From Nitrospinae bacterium RIFCSPLOWO2_12_FULL_45_22 (GTDB taxonomy: Bacteria > 2-12-FULL-45-22): a DNA stretch of 9,005 nucleotides. The stretch covers positions 1-9,005 of the forward strand of contig MHDQ01000220.1 of the NCBI GenBank assembly GCA_001803565.1, in the 5' to 3' direction. Every line of letters starts with the position of its first letter. The first letter of the stretch is position 1. Below are positions 103 through 6,417 of the stretch, piece by piece. Made by a program: the position numbers and the translations under genes. The notes beneath the pieces were generated by a model. That model saw nothing but the letters and a program-made list of their open reading frames with translations. It did not search any database and was not told the DNA's origin.

Positions 103-233
103 CGCTACTCGTTGCTAAGTGCTTCGTTTCATAAATACAGTTATGTACTATATGCAAACCAATAAACAAGTTGACATTAGGGCAATTTAAATATTTTTGG
201 GGATTCAATAGTTCGATAAATTTTTAACCGTTC

Positions 234-4582: not shown

Positions 4583-4806
4583 GGTACCTTACCCTAATTT
4601 TGTTTCTTTTATAAGATCACTAATAGATGAATGCAATTTTTATGTTGTAAAACCCCTACTGCCTATTTCCTGTTCCTGAAAGCTCTCTCTACCCTCGCAA
4701 TTACCTCCGCTAAAGGATAAAATTTTTGGGTAATGTCCAATATTTCGTGGTTTGACCTTAAGCCCTGGGTCTATAATCCCTGGTACAGGAGCCTTAAAAA
4801 CTCCAG
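4583..4806. other. Intergenic region without recognised gene
   Basis: This stretch lies between the divergent sigma factor and the duplicated MerR block. Short frames exist on the minus strand, including one from 4843 to 4640, but they have no Shine-Dalgarno, no recognisable domain and an odd composition. A weak 6-bp stem pairs CCCTGG (4778-4783) with CCAGGG (4803-4808) and reaches into the repeat boundary. It is unlike the otsB-bearing spacer at 5322-5497, so the two MerR copies have unrelated left flanks. Confidence 0.4.
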
Positions 4807-4856
4807 GGTAACCACGCCAGTTAAATTTTAATGATGAACCCACACTTTGTCAAAAG

Positions 4857-4895
4857 AGAGATAACGCTCATCAGGTAACCGGCTACAGAGATAAC
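4857..4895 (+). promoter_or_regulatory. Paired AGAGATAAC boxes upstream of the MerR promoter, copy 1
   Basis: AGAGATAAC occurs at 4857-4865 and again at 4887-4895, a 30-bp period of about three helical turns. The second box ends 13 bp before the -35 hexamer. The same pair is in copy 2 at 5548-5556 and 5578-5586. The position suits an activator or autoregulatory binding site, but no protein can be assigned from sequence alone. Confidence 0.35.
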
Positions 4896-4908
4896 CAAGA
4901 GGTGGGGC

Positions 4909-4938
4909 TTGACAAGAACCGCCTAAAATAGATAAAGT
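4909..4938 (+). promoter_or_regulatory. MerR gene promoter, copy 1
   Basis: Consensus TTGACA (4909-4914) is followed after 18 bp by TAAAGT (4933-4938), a 4/6 match to the -10. The spacer is slightly long, as at many MerR-controlled promoters. A broken dyad surrounds the -10 and start region: AGATA (4930-4934) with TATCT (4943-4947), and CCGC (4919-4922) with GCGG (4953-4956). It is a plausible autoregulatory operator. The GGAG of the ribosome site is at 4975-4978, 10 nt before the ATG. Confidence 0.5.
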
Positions 4939-4988
4939 ATTATATCTGGTAAGCGGATAGAGGCTAAAGGAGCCGGAGATTATTCCCG

Positions 4989-5372
4989 ATGCGCGATAAG
5001 GTAAAAAAGCTGCTGAAGATAAGTGAGCTATCGTCCCTGGTTGGTGTCCCTAAAGAGGCTATTCGATATTATATAAAAGAGGGACTCCTACCCAGACCGC
5101 AAAAAACTAGCAAAAACATGGCTTACTATGATGAGAGTTTTATCGAGCGGATTAAGGCAATAAAAGAATTGCAGAAAAAGAGGTTTTTACCTTTGAGGAT
5201 TATAAAGAATATCATAGGGGAAGATAGTGGTGAAAGTAGTCTCAATGAAATAAAGACCCTTTTAGAGTTGGATGGTAAGATTTTTAAGCCTATTGACCAC
5301 TTACTGAATTTTATCCCTTTATCGGCTAATGCTCTAAAGGCGTCTTCATCGGTCCGGTCATCACCAATATAA
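4989..5372 (+). pseudogene. Truncated duplicate of the MerR-family regulator (DNA-binding domain only)
   Basis: This is a 127-codon frame whose first 111 residues are identical to the intact regulator at 5680-6417. The last 16 (SANALKASSSVRSSPI) are out-of-context translation antisense to an otsB fragment. It keeps the whole winged-helix MerR DNA-binding domain (KISELSSLVGVPKEAIRYY, then the YYDES segment, then the helix to about residue 77). It loses the C-terminal half, including a second MerR-like helical segment. Its promoter, paired upstream boxes and ribosome site are duplicated intact, so it may be expressed. It is best treated as a duplication product and pseudogene. A short regulator that competes for the operator cannot be excluded. 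Confidence 0.85.
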
Positions 5373-5416
5373 ATAGAAAAAAGACCTGGTAATAATAACT
5401 GTCTTTGGCATGCCAT
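5322..5416 (-). pseudogene. otsB: Fragment of trehalose-6-phosphate phosphatase
   Basis: On the minus strand about 31 codons read LLLPGLFSIYIGDDRTDEDAF followed by RALAD. The IYIGDDRTDEDAF stretch is the metal-binding motif of the trehalose-phosphatase branch of HAD phosphatases, where the paired Asp residues hold Mg2+. The frame is closed upstream by an in-frame stop just before the ATG at 5416. On the other side it is cut at 5321/5322 by MerR copy 1. The N-terminal DxDGT motif and cap domain are absent, so no enzyme can be made. It is a remnant carried in the spacer between the two repeats. No trehalose synthase gene lies in the window. Confidence 0.75.
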
Positions 5417-5497
5417 CTAGGCTGCATAGCGGTTTAGAGCCTCATAGAATAGCGAAATTAGAAGGACATCAGTAGATTATACCACCAATCGTAATAT

Positions 5498-6012
5498 GGT
5501 AACCAGGCCAGTTAAATTTTAATGATGAACCCACACTTTGTCAAAAGAGAGATAACGCTCATCAGGTAACCGGCTACAGAGATAACCAAGAGGTGGGGCT
5601 TGACAAGAACCGCCTAAAATAGATAAAGTATTATATCTGGTAAGCGGATAGAGGCTAAAGGAGCCGGAGATTATTCCCGATGCGCGATAAGGTAAAAAAG
5701 CTGCTGAAGATAAGTGAGCTATCGTCCCTGGTTGGTGTCCCTAAAGAGGCTATTCGATATTATATAAAAGAGGGACTCCTACCCAGACCGCAAAAAACTA
5801 GCAAAAACATGGCTTACTATGATGAGAGTTTTATCGAGCGGATTAAGGCAATAAAAGAATTGCAGAAAAAGAGGTTTTTACCTTTGAGGATTATAAAGAA
5901 TATCATAGGGGAAGATAGTGGTGAAAGTAGTCTCAATGAAATAAAGACCCTTTTAGAGTTGGATGGTAAGATTTTTAAGCCTATTGACCACTTACTGAAT
6001 TTTATCCCTTTA
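5498..6012 (+). repeat. 515-bp direct repeat, copy 2
   Basis: This is the second copy of the block at 4807-5321, with one substitution. Here the block continues seamlessly into the rest of the regulator, so this copy preserves the functional gene. The 176-bp spacer between copies (5322-5497) is unrelated to the sequence on the outer left side of copy 1. Confidence 0.97.
5600..5629 (+). promoter_or_regulatory. MerR gene promoter, copy 2 (drives the intact gene)
   Basis: TTGACA (5600-5605), an 18-bp spacer and TAAAGT (5624-5629) are identical to copy 1, including the surrounding dyad. It should drive the intact regulator and, through tight spacing, the downstream peptidase and mutase genes. 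No terminator is seen after copy 1, so read-through from the first promoter could add to expression. Confidence 0.5.
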
Positions 6013-6417
6013 ACAGCCGGCGAATTGATGGAAAAAACCGGTTTACCGCTGGAAGAACTAGCAGAATTGGAAGATATGGAAATAATTAAACCATTCCTAG
6101 AAAATGGCCAGAAAAAACATGATGAGTATGATACGAGGATAGTAGAGGCCTTTGCCAGGATAAGGAGTTCTGGCGCTACAAAGGAGCTTTTCCTCACACA
6201 GGATTTTAAGCTCTATAAAGACTTCGTTGAAGCCCTGGCCCGAGAAGAAGTAAAACTCCTGGCCCGGCGGATCACAGGTAAGATATCACAACAAGAGGCC
6301 CTTAGATTAATAAATAATGTGTTCGATGCAGTAAACAATTTTGTCAATCTACTACGAAAAAAATTGATCAAGGAAACCGTGGCTGATTATGCCAATAAAT
6401 TGAAGAAAAGTCGCTAG
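5680..6417 (+). CDS. MerR-family transcriptional regulator
   Basis: This 245-residue cytoplasmic protein has a MerR-type winged helix at residues 8-77: KISELSSLVGVPKEAIRYYIKEGLLP, the YYDES wing and helix, then an arm to about 100. Residues 111-165 (LTAGELMEKTGLPLEELAELEDMEIIKP, then YDTRIVEAFARIRSSG) look like a second, degenerate MerR-like helical module. The rest is helical and may sense a ligand or mediate oligomerisation. No cysteine metal site is present, so it is not a metal sensor of the classic type. The peptidase gene begins 6 bp after its stop and the acyl-CoA mutase follows, so it probably controls this operon, perhaps in answer to an acyl-CoA or fatty acid. Its 5' half and promoter are duplicated upstream. 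The start is set by identity with copy 1 and a GGAG 10 nt upstream. Confidence 0.88.
   Translation: MRDKVKKLLKISELSSLVGVPKEAIRYYIKEGLLPRPQKTSKNMAYYDESFIERIKAIKELQKKRFLPLRIIKNIIGEDSGESSLNEIKTLLELDGKIFKPIDHLLNFIPLTAGELMEKTGLPLEELAELEDMEIIKPFLENGQKKHDEYDTRIVEAFARIRSSGATKELFLTQDFKLYKDFVEALAREEVKLLARRITGKISQQEALRLINNVFDAVNNFVNLLRKKLIKETVADYANKLKKSR

Follow-up and report, generated by a model that had tools for sequence, protein, structure and literature searches.

Two nearly identical blocks of DNA on either side of a short, dissimilar stretch raise the question of how such an A-B-A order arose, and whether the enclosed stretch is of foreign or native origin. The locus is found in the genome of Nitrospinae bacterium RIFCSPLOWO2_12_FULL_45_22, on a contig (C220) whose entire 9,005 nucleotides were analysed and are referred to here as the window. 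The first-pass annotation, made from the sequence of the window alone, had described two blocks of about 515 bp with one differing base around a foreign spacer, and had offered a Campbell-type integration, a two-step duplication and deletion, or a misassembly of strain variants as explanations.

The repeated merR segment

The repeat and the gene to which it belongs comprise the following features:
4807..5321, plus strand: A1, a partial merR copy (approximately 180 bp of upstream region and codons 1-111) within an otsB remnant, 99.8% identical to 5498-6012
5498..6012, plus strand: A2, the parent copy, consisting of the upstream region and the 5' part of intact merR; the gene runs on to 6417
5680..6417, plus strand: intact merR, encoding a MerR-family regulator of 245 aa (Pfam MerR_1, 6e-19; structure model; relatives 30-43% identical)

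The two 515-bp copies align without gaps at an offset of 691 and are separated by a spacer of 176 bp. A single mismatch distinguishes them (C at 4815, G at 5506), and from positions 4816 and 5507 onward 506 bases are identical, a similarity far beyond chance. The coordinates, the mismatch and the spacer length given by the first-pass annotation were all reproduced, and its description of the near-identity as recent, gene-converted or artificial still stands. A DNA search of the whole genome returned two copies of A only, one of them being the parent merR.

Closely downstream of merR lie a gene for an S58-type peptidase and then one for methylmalonyl-CoA mutase. Related regulators include a MerR subfamily in which the motif KNMAYYDE, located behind the first helix-turn-helix, is invariant (L011 JANQFG010000148.1; loci L012-L022); its members are found mostly in uncultured Deltaproteobacteria-like genomes and in Firmicutes.

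The trehalose gene remnant around A1

DNA searches of the same genome identified three pieces of trehalose-related genes in the left flank and the spacer:
5311..5390, minus strand: upstream half of an otsB remnant (..IYIGDDRTDEDAFRALADKGI), 84% identical to C50:4203-4282; Trehalose_PPase 2.7e-5, below the curated cut-off
4764..4807, minus strand: C-terminal half of the otsB remnant (LEFLRLLYQGL, then stop), 82% identical to C50:4350-4393
5402..5428, minus strand: start of a DUF5752 gene (MQPRWHAK), a trehalose-cluster relic, identical to C235:4392-4418 at 25 of 27 bases

Both otsB matches fall on the same strand and in the same order, 67 bp apart, within an intact gene for trehalose-6-phosphate phosphatase (C50:3541-4407, 288 aa; Trehalose_PPase 3e-47, 161 bits). 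When A1 is removed, flank and spacer align in order to this gene with one gap of 79 bases between them, a figure which includes the 11 bases of a shared word, TTATCCCTTTA, counted here with A1. Read along the minus strand, the order is IYIGDDRTDEDAFRALADKGI, A1, LEFLRLLYQGL and the stop, and the two pieces are approximately 23 residues apart in intact OtsB. Because the matches to intact otsB are collinear and interrupted by a single gap, flank and spacer are read as formerly contiguous halves of one otsB C-terminal segment. By the same alignment, A1 sits inside the otsB remnant and takes the place of approximately 67 bp. The claim that both outer flanks and the spacer are unrelated therefore does not hold, since the left flank and the spacer match one and the same intact gene.

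A family search of the genome placed otsB only in the C50 gene and in the window, where it scores 22-24 bits against the OtsB family PF02358 (cut-off 27). The window copy retains GDDRTDEDAFRALADKGI and LEFLRLLYQ in common with OtsB; unlike a family member, it is a pseudogene in which the N-terminal part is gone, 67 bp are replaced and a stop lies upstream. Judged by these traits, it is a remnant and no functional member of the family. The upstream half of the spacer was also considered as further otsB and rejected, the Pfam match covering the GDD region only.

The third piece corresponds to the beginning of a DUF5752 gene that is intact on C235, where the opening codons read MQPKWHAK. This gene clusters with treT (trehalose synthase) and an OtsA-like gene, the latter recognised by eye. 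The match of 27 bases is short, and what lends it weight is the trehalose context common to both places. The DNA from the sigma gene to merR is most plausibly what survives of a second, now reduced trehalose gene cluster, in which an earlier deletion would have joined the DUF5752 start to the otsB end. Since its otsB and DUF5752 pieces match genes of the same genome, the spacer is on this reading native, and the label foreign has to be withdrawn.

Junction words and the origin of A1

The edges of A1 fall on two short words:
5311..5321, plus strand: right junction word TTATCCCTTTA, 11 bp, present also in merR at 6002-6012 and in otsB
4807..4814, plus strand: left junction word GGTAACCA, exact over at most 8 bp by sequence, with the only mismatch (4815) directly after it

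The identity of the copies, their boundaries, the collinearity with otsB and the right-hand shared word are established. Within merR, TTATCCCTTTA encodes ..IPL, and at the corresponding place in otsB it encodes ADKGI; the intact otsB carries 10 of its 11 bases, reading TTATCCCCTTA. The left edge runs through GGTAACCA, the sole mismatch and GCCAGTT. Here, the sequence common to merR and otsB may reach 8 bp or be as short as the 2 bp GG, since the otsB side of the match was lost in the replacement. Both junctions nevertheless lie on sequence shared by donor and acceptor. Among simulated random junctions in the region, a match of 8 bases or more arose at a frequency of 3e-4, and none of approximately 2 million trials gave 11. 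Furthermore, the chance that a random substitution would fall within 9 bp of the left edge is approximately 1.7%, so the mismatch at 4815 more likely belongs to an imperfect shared stretch, in which case the copied tract would be 100% identical.

Since both edges lie on short words common to merR and otsB, it is probable that a microhomology-mediated template switch copied the 5' stretch of merR into the decayed otsB. Before this event, the order would have been an rpoD-like sigma gene, the decayed trehalose-cluster remnant on the minus strand, in which the start of DUF5752 had been joined to the end of otsB, and merR with its operon. During replication or repair, a growing strand would have switched from otsB to merR at one of the shared words and back to otsB at the other, copying merR in between, with microhomology priming both switches. 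A 515-bp stretch comprising the upstream region and the N-terminal 111 codons would thereby have been placed approximately 0.7 kb upstream in the otsB remnant, replacing approximately 67 bp. A lone mismatch 9 bp inside the left edge is expected if the switch crossed an imperfect shared stretch. The direction of copying, its completion in one step or two, its in vivo origin, its timing and the full length of the left word are what we infer. An uninterrupted arrangement was not found in a close relative: a DNA search of 60 relatives returned no homologous locus, and the phylum is represented among the genomes searched by only two, the other of which has no match to merR or the S58 peptidase. Related merR loci elsewhere do not have the neighbourhood in common and hence offer no empty site for comparison.

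A simple tandem duplication is insufficient, as there is no spacer to the left of A1 and no merR remainder to its right, so a later deletion would be needed. Accordingly, the two-step route consists of a 691-bp tandem duplication of spacer and A at TTATCCCTTTA, followed by a deletion of approximately 240 bp between two GGTAACCA words which removed the first spacer together with 67 bp of otsB. This option of the first-pass annotation is viable, both junctions lying on shared words of the right orientation, and it is a variant of the template-switch account that does not conflict with the first half of that account. Tandem duplication and deletion are both commonplace in bacteria, and further partial gene copies close to the genes of origin are present in this genome. 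However, two events and a retained intermediate are needed where the one-step route needs one. As both routes would leave identical junctions, the sequence cannot separate them, and the two-step course is regarded as possible though short of probable. A composite created during assembly is less likely still. According to this explanation, sequences from mixed strains, of which one carried a tandem duplication and another a deletion, or else from chimeric molecules, were merged into a flank-A-spacer-A path. The 3.67-Mb draft genome is indeed divided into 321 contigs, is 85% complete and was scaffolded, as its short gaps (N runs of 6-70 bases) indicate. In a sample of 64 contigs (742 kb) of the same assembly, 506 bp is by far the longest exact repeat, the next being 2.4-fold shorter (208 bp), and assembly-graph logic, not spanning reads, may underlie the contig path. 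A graph loop of such shape has a single path, which an assembler can print without spanning reads. The new junctions must nonetheless exist in reads, as normal assembly would not join sequences over 11 bp, or over 8 exact bp at most; a pure error of the assembler is therefore unlikely. Two independent chimeras leaving and returning 67 bp apart in one gene would be unlikely as well. The strain mixture of the misassembly proposal is improbable but conceivable.

Integration and transposition are both extremely improbable explanations. Campbell-type integration of a small circle carrying A and the spacer into merR would leave the A-B-A order after a single crossover within A. It implies a spacer derived from the incoming replicon and unrelated to the flank, but the spacer is a native otsB/DUF5752 remnant which carries no replication or transfer gene, and a coincidence would be needed for spacer and left flank to be collinear halves of one native gene. 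This proposal of the first-pass annotation is further weakened by the lack of any phage or plasmid record resembling A: a plasmid search with copy A gave no match, and no phage relative of A was found. The phage match H1 was short, of low value and of 5% coverage, and was dismissed. Likewise, an insertion sequence or MITE carrying the 5' part of merR could be suspected in a genome with many MITE-like intergenic repeats, but the whole genome holds only two copies of A, one of which is the parent gene, and no terminal inverted repeat, target-site duplication or transposase is visible. The inverted repeats that were detected do not lie at the edges of A.

Repetition is widespread in this genome: of 371 sampled intergenic regions, 146 have a stretch in common with another one, and several of these look MITE-like; genes in this survey were called by a simple ORF rule, and individual cases are provisional. 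Parts of genes also recur in some of the intergenic DNA, several of them close to the gene of origin (C4, C16, C210, C309), and A1 can be regarded as a large and young case among the many fragment copies of this genome.

Several repeated sequences were observed alongside. Intergenic copies of parts of nearby genes at 84-100% identity lie at C4:3004-3097 / 9369-9462, C210:784-893, C309:1025-1641 and C16:793-902, and the copied genes, as recognised by eye, encode a cytochrome-type protein, a metallo-beta-lactamase-like protein, a histidine kinase and a DNA methylase. Near-identical intergenic elements (97-99%) of 180-255 bp pair C218:3322-3576 with C311:11648-11902 (L085, L099), C12:3011-3224 with C300:19669-19883, and C314:13439-13616 with C319:1537-1711. 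The first two pairs have inverted terminal repeats (TCAGACATCTGGAAA... and GTAAATGTTTAGCC...), and all three resemble MITE families which look recently active. A motif around TAAAGNATAAAATTTTTGGG(T)AATGTCCAAT is scattered over intergenic DNA, occurring in the window at 4711-4741 and at C213:2851-2880, C288:8025-8055 and C29:3471-3542, with further weaker copies. The repeat CTAAGTGCTTCGTTTCATAAATACAGTTA... was found at several intergenic places (window 115-151; C29:3180-3587; C302:12776-13355; C310:3514-4081).

The truncated regulator and comparison with known systems

The copied segment contains a shortened reading frame and a duplicated upstream site:
4989..5372, plus strand: truncated merR ORF, 127 aa, consisting of MerR residues 1-111 and 16 unrelated residues from antisense otsB
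4909..4947 and 5600-5638, plus strand: promoter-like site TTGACA-18-TAAAGT with the dyad AGATA-N8-TATCT, duplicated; consensus match only, recognised in part by eye

The truncated copy has the N-terminal helix-turn-helix in full (66.8 bits, cut-off 21.6), as MerR-family regulators (PF13411) do. Unlike them, it is without the second domain and the C-terminal helices: the dimerisation/effector part is missing, as the copy ends at residue 111 of 245, followed by the 16 unrelated residues. The structure model of full-length MerR (mean pLDDT 71) has a low-confidence linker at approximately 88-105 and a helix-turn-helix-like second unit from approximately 111, and on this model A1 stops at the border between the two. 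A stand-alone regulator is conceivable because A1 breaks off in the linker ahead of the second domain and has kept its own upstream region. That the predicted 127-aa product acts as a stand-alone DNA-binding domain which competes with full MerR at the operator and tunes the merR-S58 peptidase-mutase operon is nonetheless very unlikely. The copy may encode a stray DNA-binding fragment, and decay is the likeliest fate of the truncated copy. If expressed, it would be a partial-duplicate regulator of very recent origin.

When an intact copy is available to which both spacer and flank can be aligned, the unusual A-B-A order becomes readable as an insertion by copying into a native gene in decay, a caution that such patterns need not mean foreign integration. 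The event itself is ordinary: a partial duplication, associated with microhomology, that lies in a dead gene. The locus resembles a tandem duplication remodelled by deletion in its 691-bp offset, the shared word at the joint and the partial second copy, but differs from a plain tandem duplication in that the first spacer is absent, hence a second event. Amplification junctions in Escherichia coli display microhomology and complex joints, which have been explained by template switching (PMC3161906). The present locus shares with such duplications, attributed to long-distance template switch or MMBIR at E. coli lac, a direct duplication whose junctions lie on short shared words, as well as the insertion of nearby sequence at a new junction (PMC3161906). 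In contrast to the E. coli events, which mostly span kilobases to tens of kilobases (PMC3161906), it consists of one 0.5-kb copy within approximately 0.7 kb, a natural and unselected scar.
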